Below the pieces are notes generated by a model. The model was not told the origin of the DNA and did no database searches. It saw nothing but the letters and a program-made list of their open reading frames with translations. Positions 2,766-25,697 of a stretch of DNA of 29,073 nt are shown piece by piece. The stretch is from a virus. The translations under genes were made by a program, and so were the position numbers. The stretch's first letter is position 1. Every line of letters begins with the position of its first letter. Where the stretch lies: IMG/VR virus record IMGVR_UViG_3300033150_001342, positions 1 to 29,073 of that record. One strand, written 5' to 3'.

Positions 2766-3270
2766 AATGAAAAAGAAAAAGAAAGTAAGAGTTTATGGGA
2801 AAGTTGATTTAATGGAAATATCAGTTGTGGGTATCCCATCATATCCTTATGCCCACTTAAATTATTCATCTTCACTTGTCAAGGCACTGCATAGTGCTTT
2901 TGACAAACCTAACCTAAATTTAAATGTGAAAAATATGTCAGAAGAAGAAACACAGACAGAAGAAGAAGGATCCACTGAAGCTGAAGAATCTGCTGAAGCA
3001 GAAGCTGAAGCAGAAGAACCAGAAAAACCAGAAGAAACAGAAGAAGAAAAACAAGAAGCTTCTGAAGAAGAATCTAAAGAGGATATTTCTGAAGAAGTTG
3101 AAAAACTTGTTTCAATAGCTGTTACTAAGGAATTGAAGCGATTAAGTGAAGAAAAGAGAGGATTAGTAGATAAAGGGAAAATCCAGGAATTATGCAAAAA
3201 AGCAGAACCTGGAGAATTGGCAATGGCTTTGGGGCTATTCCAAGTGCCTGAAACATATAAACTACCTTGA
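2758..3270 (+). CDS. Prohead protease C-terminal strand plus acidic scaffold-like domain
   Basis: The chain opens with a Lys-rich stretch, then VDLMEISVVGIPSYPYAHL, the usual C-terminal core element of prohead proteases, which is missing from the preceding frame. After a linker (about 35-60) comes a very Glu-rich segment and then a helix-prone end (LVSIAVTKELKRLSEE...), typical of scaffolding tails that precede the capsid gene. The ATG at 2758 overlaps the upstream stop; TTG 2746 and ATG 2767 are other possible starts, and none has a clear Shine-Dalgarno. An in-frame ATG at 2935 would give the acidic part alone (MSEEETQ...), much as lambda makes scaffold from inside its protease gene. The scaffold role is inferred from composition and position. 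Confidence 0.75.
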   Translation: MVKMKKKKKVRVYGKVDLMEISVVGIPSYPYAHLNYSSSLVKALHSAFDKPNLNLNVKNMSEEETQTEEEGSTEAEESAEAEAEAEEPEKPEETEEEKQEASEEESKEDISEEVEKLVSIAVTKELKRLSEEKRGLVDKGKIQELCKKAEPGELAMALGLFQVPETYKLP

Positions 3271-3272
3271 AA

Positions 3273-4217
3273 ATGGCAGATATAATTAAAGCACTAAGAG
3301 AAGCAACAGGAAGCGAGGGTGGTTATTTGGTTCCAGAGGAATTTTCAGCAAGATTATTGGAACTTATACAGGCAAAAACAGTTTCGTTGCAGGATCTTGA
3401 GCAAGTCAAGATGAATGCACAAGTTATGTATATTCCAAAAGTAACTGCTGGATCAACTGCCTATTGGGTAAATGAAACAGGAACTATAACTGCTTCACAG
3501 CCAGAATATGGCAGAATAACACTGACTGCAAAGAAAGTTGCAGCTTTGGTAGAAGCTTCATCTGAAGTCCTTGAAGATGCAAATGTTTCTATGGCTAATC
3601 ACATTGTTGACCAAATGGCAACTGATATTGCTTTAGAGGTTGATGATGAGATTATAAATGGAACAGGCGGAACTTTTGATGGACTTAGATATACAGGAAG
3701 CTTTACAAATGCTGTAGATGCAGGAGATAGTGGTACTTTGGGTACAGGAGCTACAAGTGCGGCTAACATAAGTCTTACTGTAGTTTCAAAAGCAATAACA
3801 GAAGTCCTTAAAGACAACCATGAACAACCAGATGTTTCTTATTGGAATCCAAGAACAGTTGGGAGCTTAATGCTTTTAACAGATAGTTCAGGGAGACCAA
3901 TGTTAAATCAAGAAACATGGGGAAGTCCTTTGTTAAGAGAAGGTGTAATGTACACACTTTACGGAACAAAGGTAAGGTCATCAACACAAATGCCAATAAA
4001 CCTTTCTTATGGAACAGGTTCTGGAGAAACTACTTGTGCAGATGCACTTGTTGGTAAATCCAAAATGTTTGGTATTTATGGAAACAGAAGGGGATTTATA
4101 TGGAAAACAGACTATGTTATTGCAAGTGATAAGTATCAGTATCAAACCACTATGAGAGCAGCTTTCAGTGTAAAATATCCTGATGCTTACTGTCTAATCC
4201 GTGCTATAAAGGACTAA
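3273..4217 (+). CDS. Major capsid protein (HK97 fold)
   Basis: This protein forms the icosahedral shell. It opens with KALREATGSEGGYLVPEEF, the typical start of a mature HK97-type capsid protein. Further hallmarks are VYIPKVTAGSTAYWVNE (spine helix and E-loop region) and the P-domain/A-domain pattern EVDDEIINGTG...LRYTGS. The C-terminal end, around YQTTMRAAFSVKYPDAYCLIRAIKD, is also typical of the fold. At about 314 residues it is the size of a mature form without a fused delta domain, which fits a separate scaffold encoded just upstream. The ATG at 3273 lies two bases after the upstream stop; a TTG two codons earlier is the alternative. A T-tract follows the gene. Confidence 0.93.
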   Translation: MADIIKALREATGSEGGYLVPEEFSARLLELIQAKTVSLQDLEQVKMNAQVMYIPKVTAGSTAYWVNETGTITASQPEYGRITLTAKKVAALVEASSEVLEDANVSMANHIVDQMATDIALEVDDEIINGTGGTFDGLRYTGSFTNAVDAGDSGTLGTGATSAANISLTVVSKAITEVLKDNHEQPDVSYWNPRTVGSLMLLTDSSGRPMLNQETWGSPLLREGVMYTLYGTKVRSSTQMPINLSYGTGSGETTCADALVGKSKMFGIYGNRRGFIWKTDYVIASDKYQYQTTMRAAFSVKYPDAYCLIRAIKD

Positions 4218-7018: not shown

Positions 7019-7190
7019 AATTGAAAGTTTAATAGGAAAAAAGAATGAAAATATAGCAGAGCTTATTTATCTGCTTATGAGATATTTACATCAGCCATAT
7101 TCAGAAATATTAAAAATTCCTTTGCCTTTGGCACAAGAATTAATTAAATTATTTGAAAAAGAGGCAAAAGAAGCAAGGAGGAAGAAATAA
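6993..7190 (+). CDS. Putative T-like tail assembly chaperone partner
   Basis: A short helical, basic protein (about 65 residues; LIGKKNENIAELIYLLMRYL, then a Lys/Glu-rich end) overlaps the end of the upstream chaperone in the +1 frame and ends at the tape measure start (TAATG). It could be translated independently from ATG 6993 or 7005, or as the C-terminal extension of the upstream protein by a +1 or -2 frameshift around GGCTTTAAAAATG (6995-7007). Gene order is the main evidence. A Shine-Dalgarno (AGGAGG) for the tape measure lies inside its end. Confidence 0.6.
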   Translation: MALKMLSNKIESLIGKKNENIAELIYLLMRYLHQPYSEILKIPLPLAQELIKLFEKEAKEARRKK

Positions 7191-8419
7191 TGCCGCAAGA
7201 AGATGTAATAATAAGGATTAGAGCAATAGATGAAGCAACACAGAATATAACAAAAATTTCAGCTGCTTTAAAAGAGCTTCAGCAGCCGTTTGTGGATTTA
7301 AATGATGGAATTAAGAGAACAACTATAATAACTCAAAAATTCAATGATGGAATGGAGAAGGGAGCTGGAAAAACAAGAAGATTTAGGGGGGAATGGTTGA
7401 GTTTGATGTTTGCTGGAATGGCTTTAGACAGGGTATTTGGAGGATTAGTTAGAAACCAATTAACATTATTTGGGGTTTCTGAAATGTTAAGTCAGGCTTG
7501 GACAGTAGTTTTGCTCCCAGTAATGGAATTAATTGTTCCACTCCTATATAAGCTTTTAGATGCTTTTATGAATTTGCCACCAGATATGAAGATGACTATT
7601 GGGGTTTTTGTTTTATTGGGAGCAATTTTTGGGAAAGTTTTAATGAGTCTTGGTATGCTTGTATTAGCATTAGAAGGAATAGCAGTAGTTTTTGGAACTA
7701 CTTTTGGGGGAGCCATAGCCATTGTTGGTTCATTAATAGCTGTTTTTGCTGGTATTGGGTTGATTGTAGCTGGGGTTGTTAATATAGTCAAAGGAAAATT
7801 AGAAGGAATTGGATTAGTAATTATGGGTATTGGAGCAATTTTATTATTATTTATTGGTTGGTGGGCATTAATTCCTATTGCTGTGGGGGCGGCAGTTTAT
7901 TTTATAATCAAAAAATGGGATAAAGTAAAGGGATTTTTTATAAAGGTATTCACAGTTATTAAAGATTTTTTTAAGAAATGGATTATAGATAAATTTAAAG
8001 AATGGATTTCATCTTTATGGGGTTGGATAAAAAATCTCTTTAATAAAATAAAAAGTTTTATTACAGATAAACCTAAAGAATGGATTTCATCTTTATGGAA
8101 TTGGATAAAAAATATTTTTAATAAAATAAAAAATTTCATAATTAGATATAATCCTTTTAGGGGGTTATTTGATATTGGAAAAAACATATTTGGATTTGGC
8201 AGAAGGTTGTTTGGATTTCAGGGTGGGGGATTAGTCCCAACAACAGGTCCATATATTCTCCATTCTGGAGAGAGAGTAATTCCTTCTGGCAGAGCTTCAT
8301 CAGTAGTTGTTAGTCCAACATATAATGTTTATGTGCATGATAAGTTAGAATTAGAAAGAGTTTTAAAGGCAAATAACGATAAATTAGTGCAAGAAATAAA
8401 GAGGCAAATTCCAATATGA
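7190..8419 (+). CDS. Tape measure protein
   Basis: This 409-residue protein likely sets tail length and occupies the tail lumen. The N-terminal 70 residues are helical (IRAIDEATQNITKISAALKELQQP), a typical tape-measure start. Residues 115-260 are a long hydrophobic, membrane-like region rich in Gly, Val and Ile, as usual for these proteins. Next comes a basic aromatic zone with a 26-residue tandem repeat (KEWISSLWGWIKNLFNKIKS and a near copy). The C-terminal part has Gly-rich FQGGGLVPTTGPYILHSGE, a motif seen at tape-measure ends, and a final basic helix. At the known 0.15 nm per residue the tail would be roughly 60 nm, a short siphovirus tail. AGGAGG lies just before the ATG. Confidence 0.88.
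   Translation: MPQEDVIIRIRAIDEATQNITKISAALKELQQPFVDLNDGIKRTTIITQKFNDGMEKGAGKTRRFRGEWLSLMFAGMALDRVFGGLVRNQLTLFGVSEMLSQAWTVVLLPVMELIVPLLYKLLDAFMNLPPDMKMTIGVFVLLGAIFGKVLMSLGMLVLALEGIAVVFGTTFGGAIAIVGSLIAVFAGIGLIVAGVVNIVKGKLEGIGLVIMGIGAILLLFIGWWALIPIAVGAAVYFIIKKWDKVKGFFIKVFTVIKDFFKKWIIDKFKEWISSLWGWIKNLFNKIKSFITDKPKEWISSLWNWIKNIFNKIKNFIIRYNPFRGLFDIGKNIFGFGRRLFGFQGGGLVPTTGPYILHSGERVIPSGRASSVVVSPTYNVYVHDKLELERVLKANNDKLVQEIKRQIPI
7997..8146 (+). repeat. Two 78-base tandem repeats in the tape measure gene
   Basis: Unit 1 (7997-8074) and unit 2 (8075 to about 8146) share long identical runs such as AAAGAATGGATTTCATCTTT and encode two copies of a 26-residue Trp/Lys-rich helix. The near-identity at DNA level points to a recent duplication, or frequent gain and loss that would change tail length by about 4 nm per unit. 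Confidence 0.8.
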
Positions 8420-8835
8420 CAGACAACATAACAATAAGCAAAGGTGGAATAAGTGTTACAATACACACTCTTGAAATTAATGATAATTATAAAAATACTC
8501 TCATAAGTTTTACTCCACCACAGCCAAAAGAAAAACAAGCAACTGGTCCAAAAACAACAAAAGTTATAGATTTATTAAGAATTACTCATTCAATGAAAAT
8601 TGACGGGGTTTTAACCAACGATACAGATAGAAATAATTTAATAACTATTGCTAAAGGGGCAAATACTCGCGGTGGTCCATGTTCAGTTACTTATGAAGGT
8701 TATCCAGGGTCTCCATTGAGTATGTTTTTAGAAGATTTAACTATTACAGAAGTGGCAAGAGAAAAAGATGCAATATCAGGAAATTATAAATATTCTGTTC
8801 AATTTCAATTAATAGAAGGCACATATGTAGGATGA
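8416..8835 (+). CDS. Putative distal tail / baseplate protein
   Basis: A 139-residue beta-rich protein coupled by ATGA overlaps to the tape measure before it and to the long surface protein after it. The order tape measure, small beta protein, then hub is typical for distal tail proteins that close the tube end. Visible features are Thr/Ile strands (ITISKGGISVTIHTLEINDN) and a paired strand segment TKVIDLLRITHSMKIDGVLT, similar in style to small tail proteins of archaeal siphoviruses. The role is assigned by position and secondary-structure pattern only. Confidence 0.55.
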   Translation: MTDNITISKGGISVTIHTLEINDNYKNTLISFTPPQPKEKQATGPKTTKVIDLLRITHSMKIDGVLTNDTDRNNLITIAKGANTRGGPCSVTYEGYPGSPLSMFLEDLTITEVAREKDAISGNYKYSVQFQLIEGTYVG

Positions 8836-11399
8836 AAAGAATTTATTGGGAAACTATAAAGAAATGGGCGATTAATGCAGGGATACCTATAGGAATTGTG
8901 GGATTTACTTTGCTTTTTATGTATCTGAATTATTTGGGTCTTATTAATGTTACAGGATATTCAGGAGATTCAGTTTGTGCAGGAACATTAGAAGATCCTT
9001 GTTATGCTTATATTAATTTTACTGTTAAAGAAGATTTATTTATTTATCCTATTGGATATGACCCATATGGAAGGGATACTCCCTTTTATACAGATAAAGC
9101 ACTTAAAGAATGGAAGATTTATAGAAAATGGGGTGCTGGTTGGAGAGAAATAGATTTAACTGATACTTGCAAAGGAACTTGGTGTGGTGGCAAGTATGGA
9201 GTAACAGATAATAAATATTCATACGCATTTAGAAAAGGAAAAGATTATCAGATAAAAATTGAAGCTTATAAGGAAAATGCTTTTGAGGATATTAAATGGG
9301 GATTTGGACCTGTAGATCCTGTCTGGAAAGGACTTGATTGGATAATTGAAGATAATTCTGTTTATATTAATGATTCTAAAGTTTTCATTTCAGTAACTCC
9401 TCATACAATTTATAGTTCTGATTACATCCAAATTGATTTTATGAGCAAGGTTTATTCTGGGGATATAGATTTCTTAATTGGTTTTGCAGATGAAATAAAA
9501 CCAAGTAAGGCTGAAATTTATTCTCCTCATTATATTAACAAAACAAGAAATCTCACTTGCAATTATGATTTTGGTTATATTTTAATTCCTGAAAAGAGAG
9601 CATGGTGTTTTTACAATGAGAATGGAACTAAAAGTTATATTTTTAATCATACTTTTGAATGGGGTTCTATACAGGAAAAGACAATCTATTGGAATGAAAC
9701 AACTTATAAAGAATGGAAATCATTTAAAAAGTTTAAACATATTAACTATGACTTTCAGGGAATAAATAAATGGTATTATTTATCTAATGTTCCTATACAA
9801 ACAAATCACTATTATTCAATAAGAAGTTATTTAGAAGTTCCTATCAATTCAAAAGGAAAATATTGGATTGCTTTAAAACCTTCTGATGAAACTTTGCAAG
9901 AAGCAATCCAAAATAATCATCTTTATTATCTTGACCCCTGGTATAATTCCTCTTTTAATTACAAAAAAGAAATTAATATTATAGAACTTAGTGGAAAGGA
10001 TTTATATCAATATTCAATTAGACTTAATGTTACAAAAGAAAGTGGCATGAGGTCTGATTATGGCGATTTAAGATTTGTAAATTCAACTGAAACAGGTGAA
10101 TTAAGTTATTGGATTGAAAATTTTACTGATGATTATGCAATAGTTTATGTTAAAATTCCTAAATTAACTGCCAATATAAATACTACAATTTATATGTATT
10201 ATGGCAATGCTGGAGCAACTTCAAAATCTAATGGGAATGATACATTCATTTTCTTTGAGGGTTTTGAAGATGGTGATGCTTCTGATTGGTCTTCAATATT
10301 TGGGTCAGGAACTATGACTGCTACAACTGATATAGCAAGAACAGGAAACTATTCTGGAGAATTATATTCTACTTCCAATAATGTTAGAGGAAAATCATTA
10401 GGTTATACTTTTTCAGGAACTACAAATCCCGCATTAGGATATAGTTTTTATAAAATTTCTGGAACACCTGATTCTTCTGCTCAAGTTAGTGAAACTTCAG
10501 GATATGATGTATCAAAAAATTCTATGAATCAAGGAATGGCAGTTCCAGACAATATGATAAGTTATAGAGATTCTTCTTCATATAAAGGTTTTAGAGATAT
10601 GAATATTAATATATTTTATAAAGTAGAAATGAATAATATTAATTATGCTACAGACACTTATGATATTTATATAAATGATGTTTTAAATAAAACATTAGCA
10701 GATTTTAGAAATGATGTAAGCACTGGAGCTTACTTTCAAATATTTACTTCTACTGGTGATTATCTTTACATAGATAATATTTATATAAGAAATTGGACAG
10801 ACCCAGAACCAAACTATTCATTTGGTCCAGAGCAATCAACCAATCCACAGATAGGTTTAGAGATAATATCCCCTTTAGGAAACATAAATGTTGTTCAAAA
10901 TCAGTCTTTTAGTGCAATAATTAATGTAACTTGTTTGCAGGCTGATTGCGGTGAGATAAATGTGAGTTTGGACCCTTCAAATATAAATTTAACTGCAGGA
11001 AATATAACAGAAGATGGATATGTCCAGCTGACTTTTGAATGGGAAAGAGATACAACAAGCACAGAAATTTTAGCAAGTGATTCAGGAGACCAGTACGGAT
11101 TTATAGAATTTGACACTTCTGCAATTCCAGATGGAGCAACAATAAATTCAGTAAAACTCAGGATTTATGCAGACAATCCAATTCCAGCACCGCAGGATTT
11201 ATATATCAAGAGCATGTCTGGAAAGAAGTTGTCAGATTATTCTAATGATGATTCTGGAAATGAAGATTTAAAAAATGACATAATAGGAGCAAGTTCAATA
11301 GGCTCTGAAAGTTTGTCAGCTTCTACTGCAGAATGGGTTGAAATCACATTAGATTCTAATGCAGAAACTTATCTGCAAAACCAGTTAGGAGATGATTAA
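8832..11399 (+). CDS. Giant sequon-rich surface/adhesion protein, N-terminal part (ends at in-frame TAA)
   Basis: The 855 residues start with a short basic end, one membrane segment (about 17-37, IPIGIVGFTLLFMYLNYL) and then an all-beta exterior. About 23 N-x-S/T sequons occur by hand count. Residues 375-465 match the DUF2341 pattern (YKKEINI ... YDDLRFVNSTETGELSYWIEN ... IYMYYGNAGA), followed by a lectin-like jelly roll (FFEGFEDGDASDWS) near 475-660. The end (about 735-855, YGFIEFDTSAIPDGATINS) is a DNRLRE/CBM96-like beta-sandwich that is cut short by TAA at 11397. Without any frame change the same domain continues after the stop (TADSYVEVGAEDGSNDPVL). It is coupled by ATGA to the preceding tail gene. 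It could be a tail-tip adhesin, or a membrane-anchored protein displayed on the infected cell. Confidence 0.7.
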   Translation: MKRIYWETIKKWAINAGIPIGIVGFTLLFMYLNYLGLINVTGYSGDSVCAGTLEDPCYAYINFTVKEDLFIYPIGYDPYGRDTPFYTDKALKEWKIYRKWGAGWREIDLTDTCKGTWCGGKYGVTDNKYSYAFRKGKDYQIKIEAYKENAFEDIKWGFGPVDPVWKGLDWIIEDNSVYINDSKVFISVTPHTIYSSDYIQIDFMSKVYSGDIDFLIGFADEIKPSKAEIYSPHYINKTRNLTCNYDFGYILIPEKRAWCFYNENGTKSYIFNHTFEWGSIQEKTIYWNETTYKEWKSFKKFKHINYDFQGINKWYYLSNVPIQTNHYYSIRSYLEVPINSKGKYWIALKPSDETLQEAIQNNHLYYLDPWYNSSFNYKKEINIIELSGKDLYQYSIRLNVTKESGMRSDYGDLRFVNSTETGELSYWIENFTDDYAIVYVKIPKLTANINTTIYMYYGNAGATSKSNGNDTFIFFEGFEDGDASDWSSIFGSGTMTATTDIARTGNYSGELYSTSNNVRGKSLGYTFSGTTNPALGYSFYKISGTPDSSAQVSETSGYDVSKNSMNQGMAVPDNMISYRDSSSYKGFRDMNINIFYKVEMNNINYATDTYDIYINDVLNKTLADFRNDVSTGAYFQIFTSTGDYLYIDNIYIRNWTDPEPNYSFGPEQSTNPQIGLEIISPLGNINVVQNQSFSAIINVTCLQADCGEINVSLDPSNINLTAGNITEDGYVQLTFEWERDTTSTEILASDSGDQYGFIEFDTSAIPDGATINSVKLRIYADNPIPAPQDLYIKSMSGKKLSDYSNDDSGNEDLKNDIIGASSIGSESLSASTAEWVEITLDSNAETYLQNQLGDD
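11397..11399 (+). other. In-frame TAA inside a domain
   Basis: The frame open from 8832 continues past this TAA to 13571 without another stop. The residues on both sides belong to one predicted beta-sandwich (GDD, stop, TADSYVEVG). One base change (for example TAA from TAT or TCA) would restore a protein of about 1579 residues. Genes in the window use TAA, TAG and TGA as ordinary stops, so a changed genetic code is unlikely. Confidence 0.85.
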
Positions 11400-17297: not shown

Positions 17298-17777
17298 ATG
17301 GAAAAACATGTTCAGGGCTTATTGATAGTCCTTGCAATCTTATCATTACTTGTCGGTTTTGCTGTCGGCAATGTGGTAGGACCAAAGACCGAAATTGTTA
17401 AAGAAATTCCAGTTGAAAAAGTTGTAACACAAGAAGTAGTTAAGGAAGTTCCTGTTGTAAAAGAAGTAATAAAGGAAGTTCCTGTCACAAAAGAAATAAC
17501 AAGTGATGAACTTTTGCAAAAAGCAATATCTACTTTTAAAGAAGAAAAGTTAGATGATTTGCAAAAAAAAAAAAATGAAGAATATGACTCAGACCAGATA
17601 GAAGTTAATAAAGTATATGACCAATATACAATTAACTTTGACAAAGATAAGCAAGAAGTTGAGTTTAAAATAAAACTCAAATATCTTGATGAAGATGTCG
17701 GAGACAAATGTTATGCAACTTACAATGTGGAAGTTATCTTTGAAGAAGATGAAGAACCAATAGTAAATCTTCAATAA
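17298..17777 (+). CDS. Membrane-anchored protein with KEVPV repeats
   Basis: The 159-residue protein has an N-terminal membrane segment (about 7-26, GLLIVLAILSLLVGFAVGN). Next come about 40 residues of Val/Lys/Glu/Pro repeats (IVKEIPVEKVVTQEVVKEVP and on), a charged helix with a Lys run (about 80-95), and a beta-rich acidic end (KQEVEFKIKLKYLDEDVGDK). Extended V-K-E-V-P repeats behind a membrane anchor resemble stalks that cross an envelope space, and a spanin-like or surface role is possible but unproven. It has its own promoter-like box and Shine-Dalgarno and ends at a strong T-tract, so it is probably a separate transcription unit. Confidence 0.7.
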   Translation: MEKHVQGLLIVLAILSLLVGFAVGNVVGPKTEIVKEIPVEKVVTQEVVKEVPVVKEVIKEVPVTKEITSDELLQKAISTFKEEKLDDLQKKKNEEYDSDQIEVNKVYDQYTINFDKDKQEVEFKIKLKYLDEDVGDKCYATYNVEVIFEEDEEPIVNLQ

Positions 17778-17784
17778 AAGCAAA

Positions 17785-17813
17785 TTTTTTTTCTTTTTTT
17801 TTCTTTTCTTTTT
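17785..17813 (+). terminator. T-tract terminator of the late module
   Basis: A run of T broken only by single C residues, with no hairpin, directly after the last late gene and before the promoter of the structured RNA. This is the expected archaeal termination signal. Confidence 0.65.
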
Positions 17814-17817
17814 AACA

Positions 17818-17832
17818 GAAAAATTTATAAAC
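17818..17832 (+). promoter_or_regulatory. Promoter of the structured RNA
   Basis: GAAAAATTTATAAAC contains a BRE-like purine-A stretch and the TATA box TTTATAAA. A transcription start about 25 bases downstream would fall at about 17850, right at the left edge of the G+C-richer structured region. Confidence 0.55.
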
Positions 17833-17849
17833 TATAATTCTTTTATTAT

Positions 17850-18206
17850 ATTGAATGCTTGCGTGCCGGGTAAGGGAGATTAACAGGAGACACTCCAAGA
17901 GGGTATACGCTATGTGAGCTGCACGCAGAAATCAATTAATTTGCTATCGGACAAATTAGTGTCCCCACTATGTAAGTGTGGCGGCTTCGGTCCGCATGGT
18001 ATTTAACGGGGTTAAATCTGTGTTAAACTTTGGAAGATAGCCAAATTATGCGATTAATGATGTGTGTATATGATAATAGCCTATATATGGATCCTCCATA
18101 TCAAAAAAAAGGAAGTGATGGCTATTCACATAACCAAGAATGGGGCATTCTTGAGCCAGAAGTCCAATAGCCATATAGGGAAAGAATAGAAATCCAGATT
18201 TTTTTT
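17850..18206 (+). ncRNA. Large structured RNA of unknown class (about 350 nt)
   Basis: No protein frame is open here, yet G+C rises to about 43-52% in sample lines against about 30% around it. Several helices can be drawn by hand. Helix 1: TGCGTGC 17860-17866 with GCACGCA 17921-17927. Helix 2: GCTATC 17943-17948 with GATAGC 18036-18041, enclosing hairpins 17949-17953/17960-17964, a UUCG-capped hairpin 17981-17995 and the hairpin 18001-18007/18011-18017. Then hairpins 18085-18091/18095-18101 and 18135-18142/18146-18153, the latter inside helix 18119-18126/18166-18173. A TATA box precedes the region and a T8 tract (18199-18206) follows. It does not show the signature motifs of RNase P, SRP, tmRNA, group I/II introns or tRNA that I know. 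Function unknown: regulatory, packaging or scaffold RNA are all possible. Confidence 0.65.
18199..18206 (+). terminator. T8 tract ending the structured RNA
   Basis: Eight T residues follow the last recognised helix after a short A/G-rich linker. This is a plausible archaeal 3' end for the RNA on the plus strand. Confidence 0.5.
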
Positions 18207-18232
18207 CAAAAATTTGTTCTTTCTTTATATAT

Positions 18233-18276
18233 ATGCAAAATTATATACTCCAACATATATGTTGCAAAATATATTA
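18233..18276 (+). promoter_or_regulatory. Operator-like palindrome and flanking direct repeats
   Basis: The perfect 14-base palindrome CAACATATATGTTG (18251-18264) overlaps the second of two direct repeats (TGCAAAATTATATA from 18234, TGCAAAATATATTA from 18263, 29 bases apart). The site lies just upstream of the TATA box of the winged-helix gene, a natural place for autoregulation. Confidence 0.45.
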
Positions 18277-18283
18277 TATATAA

Positions 18284-18300
18284 TAAAAACATTTATATAT
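18284..18300 (+). promoter_or_regulatory. Early promoter
   Basis: TAAAAACATTTATATATA gives an A-rich BRE and TATA box about 25-30 bases before ATG 18321, predicting a leaderless early mRNA that begins the 18321-25697 gene run. Confidence 0.5.
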
Positions 18301-18320
18301 ATGTGTGTATGTGTATATGT

Positions 18321-18641
18321 ATGGAAAAATCATTTTGGACACAACAAAAAAGACTACAAATAATGAATTCTGTTTTATCATGGATTAGACAGGCATATTT
18401 TCAAAATAAAGAAGTTGATAAAAGAAAATTAATTTCAAATATGATGTTTGAATTTGGCTGTTCAAGAACCAAAGCATTAGAATATCTCAATATATTAGAA
18501 GCTACAAATAAAATAAGCATGACTCAGAAGATTGTTTCTTATATCCCAAAAGAAGGAGATAAAAAAATTGAAGAAGAATTCAATAATCAAATAAATAATA
18601 TAACAGGAGGTCAAAATGGAAAAAGCAAAAGGGAAAGTTAA
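18321..18641 (+). CDS. Small winged-helix DNA-binding protein, likely early regulator
   Basis: The roughly 106-residue protein (MEKSFWTQQKRLQIMNSVLS...) has an N-terminal helix pair and a helix-turn-helix-like stretch (KRKLISNMMFEFGCSRTKAL, EYLNILEATNKI), followed by a wing-like strand (ISMTQKIVSYIP) and a charged tail. It resembles short winged-helix regulators of archaeal viruses. It starts at ATG 18321 because the TATA box is about 25 bases upstream; the in-frame GTG 18303 would add only Cys/Met-rich residues. Being first after the control region with a palindrome, it probably represses its own promoter and perhaps the divergent or late genes. Confidence 0.65.
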   Translation: MEKSFWTQQKRLQIMNSVLSWIRQAYFQNKEVDKRKLISNMMFEFGCSRTKALEYLNILEATNKISMTQKIVSYIPKEGDKKIEEEFNNQINNITGGQNGKSKRES

Positions 18642-18999
18642 ATATCTAAAAAAGGATGGAACAGCAGTTTGTATTGAGGTTGAGGGAATTGAACAATGGT
18701 TTAATTTGTCAAAATATGTAAAACCAAGTTTTTGCAGGGTTGGAGAGGAATGCGACATTTCTTATGAATTGCAGGATAAAGGAAACCCGGTTTTAAAATA
18801 TATAACGTGTGGAGGAGTTAAGATGGAAGAAGTAAAGATAGAGAAGGCAAGCGACATAAACAAAATATCTGAAGAAATGATAAGAATGAATGCAACAAAA
18901 ACAGCAAGCCAAGTTTTTGCAGGCACATCAGAAGTTGATGGGTTTAAGGAACTTGTGAAAGAAGTTATAAATTTCATCAAGACTGGAGAATGGGATTAA
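18616..18999 (+). CDS. OB-fold-like protein, possible ssDNA-binding accessory
   Basis: Residues 1-62 (KGKVKYLKKDGTAVCIEVEG, EQWFNLSKYVKPSFCRVGEE) look like a five-strand OB barrel of the kind used for short single-stranded DNA-binding proteins in viruses. The remaining half (EEVKIEKASDINKISEEMIR...) is helical and could mediate partner contacts. A good Shine-Dalgarno (AGGAGG) precedes the ATG, which lies inside the end of the regulator gene. The neighbours are replication/recombination-type genes, so a DNA-handling role is reasonable but inferred. Confidence 0.6.
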   Translation: MEKAKGKVKYLKKDGTAVCIEVEGIEQWFNLSKYVKPSFCRVGEECDISYELQDKGNPVLKYITCGGVKMEEVKIEKASDINKISEEMIRMNATKTASQVFAGTSEVDGFKELVKEVINFIKTGEWD

Positions 19000-21270: not shown

Positions 21271-21779
21271 AAACTAAAAAACTAAAAATTCAAATGAATG
21301 GAAGACCAGATGAATTTCAAACTCCCGAGCATGCAGTAGATATTTTAGTTCCTTATCTTAAAAGAGCGAACATAAAAATTATCTGGGAATGTGCAATAGG
21401 GAAAGGTCTTTTAGCAGATGCTTTAAATAAAAGAGGTTTTTTTATTATAAAAATTTATGGAGATTTTCTTAAAATAACACCTCATGATGATTTTGATTGT
21501 ATAGTAACAAATCCCCCCTATTCAAAAAAAGATGAATTTTTAGAAAAAGCATACCAAATGGGAAAACCTTTTGCTTTTCTATTGCCTTTAACAGCATTAG
21601 AAGGAAAAAGAAGGCAGAAGTTGTATAAAAAATATGGAATTCAATTAATAATCCCAAATAAAAGAATAAACTTTATTACTCCCTCTGGAAAAGGCTCTGG
21701 AGCCTGGTTTCAGACAGCGTGGTTTTGTTGGAAATTAAATCTTCCTCAACAATTAAATTTCGTGGAGGCAACATGGTAA
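21267..21779 (+). CDS. DNA N6-adenine-type methyltransferase, short
   Basis: The 170-residue enzyme-like protein has the SAM-binding motif I region (WECAIGKGLLADALNKRG, residues 40-57) and the catalytic motif IV TNPPYSKKDE (NPPY at 82-85), as in amino-methyltransferases for adenine. It lacks a clear target-recognition domain, so specificity may be low or provided by a partner; RNA is another possible substrate. Phages use such enzymes to protect their DNA from host restriction. No restriction nuclease gene lies next to it. Its stop lies seven bases into the start of the next gene. Confidence 0.75.
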   Translation: MKTKKLKIQMNGRPDEFQTPEHAVDILVPYLKRANIKIIWECAIGKGLLADALNKRGFFIIKIYGDFLKITPHDDFDCIVTNPPYSKKDEFLEKAYQMGKPFAFLLPLTALEGKRRQKLYKKYGIQLIIPNKRINFITPSGKGSGAWFQTAWFCWKLNLPQQLNFVEATW

Positions 21780-22162
21780 CAAATACAAAAAAACTAATCT
21801 CAAACTTGAAGAAGGAGATTGAGAGAATTAATAATCAACCAAGCATTTCTGGAGGACATAAAGTTAAATGTCCCATTTGTATGAAATATATAAAACATTA
21901 CACAAGTAAAGTTTCTGTTGTGTTAGATAGAAATTTTGGTCTAAATCAAAAAACAGGCTTATATAAATTCAAGAAAAAAACAATTAATTCTTTTCATCCA
22001 ACTTGTTATGATAATTTAAAACAAGCACAACTCAAATTTGCAGAAAAATTAATTAAAGCAATTAAGGAAGATATTAAATCAATTAGAAAAGATAAGAGCA
22101 TACTTACTGATTATGAAAGATTGGATATTATAGGTCATATTTTAGATGAGGCAATCAAATGA
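21773..22162 (+). CDS. Zinc-finger-like small protein
   Basis: The start is ATG 21773, with GGAGG just upstream; a longer GTG frame (21719) would be a shadow of the methyltransferase. The 129-residue protein begins with a coiled-coil helix (TKKLISNLKKEIERINNQ). Then comes a metal-binding pattern CPIC ... H ... SFHPTCYDN (C-x2-C and H-x2-C). It ends in a long charged helix (AQLKFAEKLIKAIKEDIKS). This layout fits a small treble-clef or C2HC finger used for nucleic-acid or protein contact. Function unknown. Confidence 0.6.
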   Translation: MVTNTKKLISNLKKEIERINNQPSISGGHKVKCPICMKYIKHYTSKVSVVLDRNFGLNQKTGLYKFKKKTINSFHPTCYDNLKQAQLKFAEKLIKAIKEDIKSIRKDKSILTDYERLDIIGHILDEAIK

Positions 22163-23974: not shown

Positions 23975-24210
23975 GAAAATATTTATTTATAAGAGCAAAA
24001 AATTTAAAAGATAAAGTGAAAAAAGTAAGTGAAAGTGAGAATCAAGCATTTTTTGAATTAAATTTAACTGAAGTATCCCACATAATAAGAATTTATTACA
24101 AAAAAAACAAATTAAATTTCAGCTGCACATGCCCCCATTATTCAATTCAAGGAAGAATATGCAGCCACATATTAGCATGTTTAAATTATATGATAGAAAA
24201 TGCCAACTGA
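23971..24210 (+). CDS. SWIM zinc-finger protein 1
   Basis: The 79-residue protein (start ATG 23971, ATGA overlap with the methylase stop; a TTG at 23962 is less likely) ends in the SWIM zinc-finger pattern C-x-C-x9-C-x-H (C52, C54, C64, H66; SCTCPHYSIQGRICSHILAC). The N-terminal half is a basic beta-rich part. SWIM domains bind DNA or proteins in recombination and transposition factors. Nearly the whole protein is this domain, so it is likely an adaptor. An unlinked second SWIM gene follows at 24540. Confidence 0.75.
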   Translation: MRKYLFIRAKNLKDKVKKVSESENQAFFELNLTEVSHIIRIYYKKNKLNFSCTCPHYSIQGRICSHILACLNYMIENAN

Positions 24211-24403
24211 AAAACAAAAAAGAGTTTTAAGAGAATTAGTAAAATTCAAATGTGAATTATGCAAAAAACATGAAAAAGAATGTGGAAAATTAGAACCCCA
24301 CAGAATTTTAAGAGGTTATGCAGGCGGAGAATATATCCCCAGAAACATTTTAATGATATGCAAAAAATGCCATAAAGCTCTCCACCAATATGAATTTAAA
24401 TGA
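24200..24403 (+). CDS. HNH endonuclease-like protein
   Basis: The 67-residue protein holds a complete compact HNH: two metal-binding pairs (FKCELCKKH and MICKKCHKALH), the catalytic-type PHRI (LEPHRILRGYAGGEYIPRN) and the following Asn. It is very short for an HNH nuclease and lacks extra DNA-binding parts. In HK97-like phages an HNH protein beside the terminase genes is needed for DNA packaging cleavage, and this gene lies two genes before a terminase-small-subunit-like one. Homing or other nickase roles are alternatives. Confidence 0.75.
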   Translation: MPTEKQKRVLRELVKFKCELCKKHEKECGKLEPHRILRGYAGGEYIPRNILMICKKCHKALHQYEFK

Positions 24404-25144: not shown

Positions 25145-25697
25145 ACTGCAAGACAAAATAATAACCTTAAAAGCTCAAGGATATTCAAATCAGGCAGTTG
25201 CAGATTTAATAAATAATGAGTTTGAAACAGACCTAACTAAACATGAAATAGTATCCTATTTTAGAAAAAGAAGGGATAAATCAATAGAAGTTTTAAGAAA
25301 AGATAAAAAACTTCAAAAAAAACTTGCAGAAAGATATTTCAACACAATAGAACAAATTAATATTCTAAATCACGAGATGTGGGAATTTTGGTATAGCTTA
25401 AAGAAATCTCCAGAAACAAGTTTCAAGCGCCTTAAATGTCCTAAATGCGGGAAAGAAATAAGCATAGAAGAAAGAAACTATAAAACCCTTTTAAAAGCTG
25501 CAGAGCAAATTTTAAAGCAGATTGAACATGTAGATAAAGTAATCGGGCGTTTAAAGAAAGAGAACTTAACAATTAATATAGATACAGTAGATTTAAGCAA
25601 AAATTTAAGCGTAGTAATCCCCAGATTATTGGAAAGATTAGAAAAGCAAGACATAATTAAGATTAAAAAGAAAAGATTAATCCAAGATTATAAATAA
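25116..25697 (+). CDS. Terminase small subunit-like protein
   Basis: The 193-residue protein has an N-terminal helix-turn-helix (LSPKLQDKIITLKAQGYSNQ, AVADLINNEFETDLTKHEIV, then YFRKRRD), the DNA-recognition part of many small terminases. A long helical middle with one Cys pair (RLKCPKCGKEI) comes next, followed by an oligomerisation-type helical region (KAAEQILKQIEHVDKVIGRL). It could instead be a general HTH regulator. Its 3' end overlaps the convergent RuvB-like gene by ten bases. The expected large terminase is not found next to it. Confidence 0.55.
   Translation: MLKVEELSPKLQDKIITLKAQGYSNQAVADLINNEFETDLTKHEIVSYFRKRRDKSIEVLRKDKKLQKKLAERYFNTIEQINILNHEMWEFWYSLKKSPETSFKRLKCPKCGKEISIEERNYKTLLKAAEQILKQIEHVDKVIGRLKKENLTINIDTVDLSKNLSVVIPRLLERLEKQDIIKIKKKRLIQDYK

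Follow-up and report, generated by a model that had tools for sequence, protein, structure and literature searches.

A candidate structured RNA gene at the late/early junction of a head-tailed, very probably archaeal virus

Introduction

To our knowledge, archaeal viruses have so far yielded few structured RNAs. The phi29-like pRNA is a virus-encoded structured RNA of a few hundred nucleotides or less with a fast-evolving sequence. GOLLD and ROOL are large structured RNA genes of tailed viruses that encode no protein, are often found near tRNA genes and have no known function (PMC12286853). The haloarchaeal tailed virus HRTV-DL1 has a non-coding transcript with palindromes which derives from a palindrome-associated element (PATE) (PMC10544981). 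In AT-rich genomes, high G+C in long intergenic regions is a mark of structured RNAs (PMC2704228).

Here we describe a candidate structured non-coding RNA of about 350 nt (17852–18206, + strand) in the virus record IMGVR_UViG_3300033150_001342, whose full length of 29,073 bases is referred to as the window. It combines the features by which non-coding RNA genes are generally recognized: no ORF, a predicted promoter and terminator of its own and raised G+C. An earlier note on this DNA had proposed that an RNA gene lies at the junction between the late and early modules and is served by a separate promoter and terminator, and the composition, the placement of promoter and T-tracts, the hairpins and the absence of ORFs all point to such a gene.

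The Virus and Its Likely Host

The window encodes an HK97-type head-tailed module on the + strand, with a portal (90–1682), a major capsid protein (3267–4217; PF05065, E 1.9e-38) and a tape measure protein (7190–8419) adjoined by tail genes. The tail region also contains an 855-aa protein with a DUF2341 domain (8832–11399; E 2.7e-23), a possible receptor-binding or surface protein. Past the tail genes, small early-type genes extend up to 25.7 kb, and a block on the − strand begins at 25,688 and includes a RuvB/clamp-loader-like ATPase. One early gene (24200–24403) is unusually conserved: its 67-aa HNH-like product (PF01844, E 2.5e-4) has 60–68% identity in several relatives. The terminase gene is missing at the contig end.

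Within IMG/VR we identified 31 portal relatives and further relatives of the major capsid protein, the ATPase and a SWIM protein. Archaeal-type TATA boxes are found ∼25–30 nt ahead of many start codons in these related genomes. Based on these boxes and on the related contigs, the host is very probably an archaeon, a point on which the earlier note had been silent. A motif scan found sigma-70 promoters and hairpin terminators at chance level only, as expected if this is the case. Searching bacterial and archaeal genomes with the major capsid protein gave a single distant match in Streptomyces, which is probably unrelated. Two relatives, G017 (L057 15743–17134) and G021 (L060 8712–10127), have a gene for a Cpn60/TCP-1 family chaperonin (E about 1e-95) that possibly serves virion assembly.

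An ORF-Free, G+C-Rich Block Between Late and Early Modules

Positions 17778–18302 are the only gap of at least 220 bp in the contig without an ORF of at least 65 aa. By G+C the gap falls into three parts, with 12.3% (17778–17850), 41% (17850–18198), and 13.5% (18199–18302). The local rise in G+C reported in the earlier note is therefore real, at 41% against 12–14% in the flanking spacers, and its statement that no protein frame is open here also holds, since the longest reading frames within the block do not exceed 46 codons.

The last gene of the late module (17298–17777, + strand) encodes a 159-aa protein with an N-terminal hydrophobic segment, and its homologues in G021, G041, and G043 are likewise found at the late end. 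It is followed by T8 and T9 tracts (17785–17802, + strand), presumably an archaeal terminator, and by an A-rich BRE-like stretch and TATA box (17818–17831, + strand). The TATA box itself reads TTTATAAA (17824–17831) and is A-rich immediately upstream. As the center of archaeal TATA boxes lies about 27 nt ahead of the start (PMC5316973), transcription would be expected to begin near 17853–17856, and the box seen in the earlier note lies at the expected distance. A similar TATA box plus a TAATTC(A/T)-like element was found in G017, G041, and G021; the promoters of G017 and G041 are 86% alike across 36 nt, and the TATA region of the window resembles both.

The block ends in a T8 tract (18199–18206, + strand), as noted earlier, which is presumed to be the 3′ end of the RNA. 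Runs of eight or more T residues occur only five times on the + strand of the 29 kb. Three of them are located here, two (17785 and 17794) just behind the late operon and the third at the block end, and the TATA box and these rare tracts bracket precisely the G+C-rich block. Downstream, the first gene of the early module has an ORF from GTG 18303 to 18641 (+ strand), with ATG 18321 as the more likely start. A TATA box of its own (TTTATATA, 18292–18299, + strand) lies about 25 nt before this ATG, which is a leaderless spacing. The next gene on (18616–18999) has homologues in G004, G021, and G047. Judged from sequence, the bracketing by TATA box and T8 together with the separate promoter of the early gene suggests that the block forms a separate transcription unit.

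The block could instead be a cis-acting leader of the early operon, such as a riboswitch or an attenuator, with the T8 tract as a leaky terminator. It does lie on the same strand as the first early gene and just upstream of it, and competing pairings are available, with AAUUUG able to pair with either of two CAAAUU and GGCUAUU with either of two AAUAGCC. However, a separate TATA box precedes the early gene at leaderless spacing, so that the RNA would not be its leader, and the genes past the block in L197 and G041 likewise have TATA boxes of their own. About 100 nt of spacer with 13.5% G+C also separates the block from the early gene, and no Rfam leader matched. We therefore regard a leader as very unlikely.

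Hairpins and Predicted Fold

The 355 nt of the block (17852–18206) contain four perfect hairpins with stems of 7–8 bp. In 5000 dinucleotide shuffles the mean was 0.13 such hairpins, with three reached in two shuffles and four in none. Compared with the contig's own hairpin rate (26 others), the Poisson probability of at least four is 3.5e-4. The four, all read on the + strand, are a 7-bp hairpin TAATTTG/CAAATTA (17937–17958), two further 7-bp hairpins, ATTTAAC-GGG-GTTAAAT (18001–18017) and ATATGGA-TCC-TCCATAT (18085–18101), and an 8-bp hairpin CAAGAATG-GGG-CATTCTTG (18135–18153; pair probability 0.7). Perfect helices, as described in the earlier note, are present; its UUCG-capped hairpin, GCGG-C-UUCG-G-U-CCGC (17981–17995, + strand), contains a bulged U and accounts for only about a third of the predicted ensemble (pair probability about 0.35).

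In the full RNA the first hairpin has a predicted probability of about 0.01, and it is mutually exclusive with a long-range helix in which AATTTGCTAT (17938–17947) pairs with ATAGCCAAATT (18037–18047). This predicted helix of 10 bp with one bulge closes a domain (17938–18047, + strand) and encloses a multi-branched region, with a pair probability of about 0.8. Local folding of 17930–18055 gave a z of −1.7, and the minimum free energy of the whole block is at shuffle level (z 0.02 and 0.16). We infer that the fold is real but modestly stable, and possibly protein-dependent or switching. CAAATTA occurs twice (17952–17958 and 18042–18048) against one TAATTTG, and these alternative partners would allow two mutually exclusive folds. 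Copies of AATAGCC similarly compete for one GGCTATT (sites 18075–18081, 18120–18126, and 18166–18172), which would also allow mutually exclusive folds.

Palindromes can also act as double- or single-stranded DNA, and the block might be a DNA element such as a replication origin, a packaging site or an attachment site. Its short palindromes are perfect, it is intergenic and lies between modules, and its total RNA folding energy is at chance level, as such an element would allow. On the other hand, the cumulative GC skew climbs past 18 kb without a turn and reverses only near 25.7 kb, at the switch in gene direction. There are no iterons or repeated units, and no integrase was recognized among the scanned window proteins. 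The framing of the block by a TATA box and a T-tract also speaks against a DNA element, which leaves the raised G+C between promoter and terminator in several relatives unexplained. This explanation appears unlikely.

Two of the four perfect hairpins overlap a 46-codon frame with a weak coding signal (18030–18170, + strand), which has weak profile matches and a DPPY motif like motif IV of adenine methyltransferases; the hairpin at 18085–18101 also forms the codons for YMDPPY. According to a further alternative the block is a decayed or very short protein gene, whose 3′ half is the remnant of an adenine methyltransferase and whose raised G+C reflects a foreign origin. The frame reads LYMDPPYQ...DGYSH, and the best weak matches are all DNA methyltransferases; 28 residues align with a methylase of a Lactococcus phage at 46% identity. 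Its codon bias (z 2.25) is within the range of real gene fragments, and the G+C by codon position is 0.51/0.30/0.28. Yet every match is non-significant (Pfam D12, E 0.19; PHROG, E 0.054; tblastn, E 0.1), several peptides having been tried in these library searches (E 0.05–0.2), and a [DN]PP[YFW] word arises in 1.8% of shuffles. A frame on the reverse strand has a higher coding score (z 3.0), none of the frames tested in the 5′ half gave a coding signal (z ≤ 0), and the peptide is encoded by no related virus searched. Coding would also leave the hairpin excess unexplained. The methyltransferase resemblance is probably due to chance, although it possibly reflects a gene remnant, and we consider this protein-gene interpretation quite unlikely.

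Searches for Known RNA Families and Homologues

A scan of the whole window against Rfam 15, which covers GOLLD, ROOL, HEARO, OLE, RNase P, SRP, and group I and II introns among other families, gave nothing above the gathering thresholds. A lax Rfam search gave chance-level matches only (best E 0.63). This agrees with the earlier note, which had seen no signature of a known family. ARAGORN found no tRNA or tmRNA genes in the window.

No sequence homologue of the RNA was found by blastn in about 50 related viral records, a set from which the very closest ones may be absent, and blastn against phage records gave one chance match of 42 nt. Scanning IMG/VR for the pattern of the helix arms gave three matches, all of them unrelated and due to chance. 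Queries with the portal, major capsid, clamp-loader, SWIM and small-terminase-like proteins identified more relatives but none closer. The new viral RNA class proposed in the earlier note is not established by these results, as no homologue of the candidate was found and the relatives' junction blocks match it neither in sequence nor in any detectable fold. What the locus offers is a credible orphan RNA gene, predicted from sequence and new to Rfam.

Two other candidates were rejected. The longest complement to the opposite strand of the viral genome does not exceed 12 nt, which argues against an RNA antisense to the viral genome, and no long repeats of template/variable type were found as would be seen in a diversity-generating retroelement.

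The Late/Early Junction in Related Viruses

Four relatives have a different ORF-free block behind its own TATA box at the same junction: G017 (3724–3985), G041 (38330–38105, − strand), G008 (41440–41125, − strand), and L197 (6803–7185). These blocks are 226–383 nt long with 37–43% G+C. In three of the four the block has a higher G+C than its own contig; the exception is G008, where a contig of 42% G+C gives no contrast. Junction blocks without an obvious adjacent promoter are found in G004 (36978–37200) and L196 (3314–3560). The G004 block has a better folding energy than its shuffles (z −2.5), and its 5′-end GGAACGAGA can pair with its 3′-end TCTCGTTCC. G023 has a tRNA-Met(CAT) gene at the junction (L065 3276–3352). 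In G021 and G020 an ORF-poor stretch comes after a small ORF, and no clear junction block was seen in G043 or G047. The recurrence of junction blocks among the relatives is partial.

No shared sequence motif or fold was detected among the blocks. Words of 7–9 nt common to seven junction blocks occur at shuffle level only, and Sankoff-type structural alignment of eight pairs gave no common fold (z −1.3 to 1.7). Those blocks of relatives that were scanned gave no Rfam match. Covariation of a 5′ helix across the window, G017, and G021 was considered and rejected because the G021 bases belong to a small ORF (MHEQ...); the idea is also undercut by the low probability of this helix in the window. 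The capsid proteins are still 60–67% identical between viruses with unrelated junction blocks.

Several other features were seen in these genomes. A small zinc-ribbon family (C..C...C..C, ending in S(K/R)(T/S)G...(W)M(R/Q)) lies beside the junction blocks of relatives (G004 36787–36978, G017 4044–4199, G021 44590–44796, and G023 43858–44021) and is absent from the window. G023 has a second tRNA-like gene, called as tRNA-Thr CGT, 1.6 kb beyond the tRNA-Met gene (L065 4953–5034). In the early region of G008, about 4 kb from its junction block, six tRNA genes are clustered (Trp, Ile, Asn, Thr, Asp, and Met; L053 16523–17101, − strand). G047 has a further stretch poor in ORFs (21480–21900; L183 1480–1900), which contains strong inverted repeats and a TATA box; it is found in a different place, ahead of the clamp-loader-like gene, and has no Rfam match.

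As relatives carry sequence-unrelated look-alike blocks or a tRNA gene at the same position, the junction may be a fast-changing slot for exchangeable or fast-evolving RNA genes. In its full form, this would mean that a group of archaeal viruses keeps a dedicated slot behind a TATA promoter of conserved type, and that each virus fills it with its own unrelated structured RNA (about 220–390 nt) or a tRNA, either by exchange or with homology lost through fast evolution. We put this forward as a tentative proposal. If true, recurring unrelated G+C-rich blocks at one slot would point to RNA-based host takeover or counter-defense, and the slot would hold an arms-race class of trans-acting viral RNAs. 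Genes in such a slot would escape homology-based surveys that depend on Rfam or covariation. More of them could be sought by inspecting the region between the T-tracts of the late operon and the first early TATA box. The possible slot is more interesting than the single locus.

A Probable Trans-Acting RNA Gene

Our preferred interpretation, with a probability of about 0.62 on the sequence evidence, is that this head-tailed, very likely archaeal virus carries at 17852–18206 a structured RNA gene that is transcribed independently and acts in trans. Host RNA polymerase would start at the TATA box at 17824, just past the end of the late operon, and terminate at the T8 tract that ends at 18206. The resulting RNA would fold into a multi-branched 5′ domain (17938–18047), followed by a 3′ part that has two strong hairpins. 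As a decoy or a regulator, it may bind a protein or an RNA of the host or the virus during takeover. Since a separate leaderless promoter serves the early operon, the RNA would not be a leader and would have to act in trans, which makes a trans role appear the likelier of the two. An RNA that binds a partner is also favored because turnover in a fixed slot is expected of accessory genes under host pressure. If transcribed, the candidate would be a new orphan viral RNA.

Comparison With Known Systems

The earlier note had suggested packaging as one role, for which the phi29-like pRNA would be a known counterpart. The relatives have a Terminase_6 large subunit (Terminase_6N/6C in G017 and G021) rather than a phi29-type motor, and the candidate RNA sits between the late and early modules. 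A packaging role is therefore disfavored, as the large terminase of the relatives is an ordinary one.

The PATE-derived transcript of HRTV-DL1 resembles the candidate in its palindromes and in coming from an archaeal tailed virus, whereas the candidate lacks TnpB, is single-copy and has its own predicted promoter and T-tract. The strong expression of PATE in HRTV-DL1 (PMC10544981) and the palindromes in the block would be compatible with what is left of an IS200/605 PATE, or with a HEARO/omega-RNA-like guide for TnpB/IscB. However, PF07282, the TnpB/IscB-type domain, was found in none of 14 related records while the control genomes were positive, which disfavors a TnpB guide. No such domain was seen among the scanned window proteins either, the block occurs once in the contig, and HEARO did not match. 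This origin seems highly improbable.

The high-GC intergenic non-coding RNAs of the Pelagibacter type have the same signature as the candidate, a long intergenic region of raised G+C in an AT-rich genome (PMC2704228). They are backed by conservation, whereas no homologue was found for the candidate.

GOLLD and ROOL are longer (about 600–800 nt compared with about 350 nt), and the sole GOLLD alignment, which lies on the opposite strand, scored 8.7 bits where the cut-off is 150. The candidate further differs from them in having no sequence conservation even among relatives and in its archaeal-type promoter. Like them, it would be a structured RNA gene of a tailed virus without a protein product, and the relative G023 has a tRNA-Met gene at the equivalent place, as GOLLD and ROOL often lie near tRNA genes.
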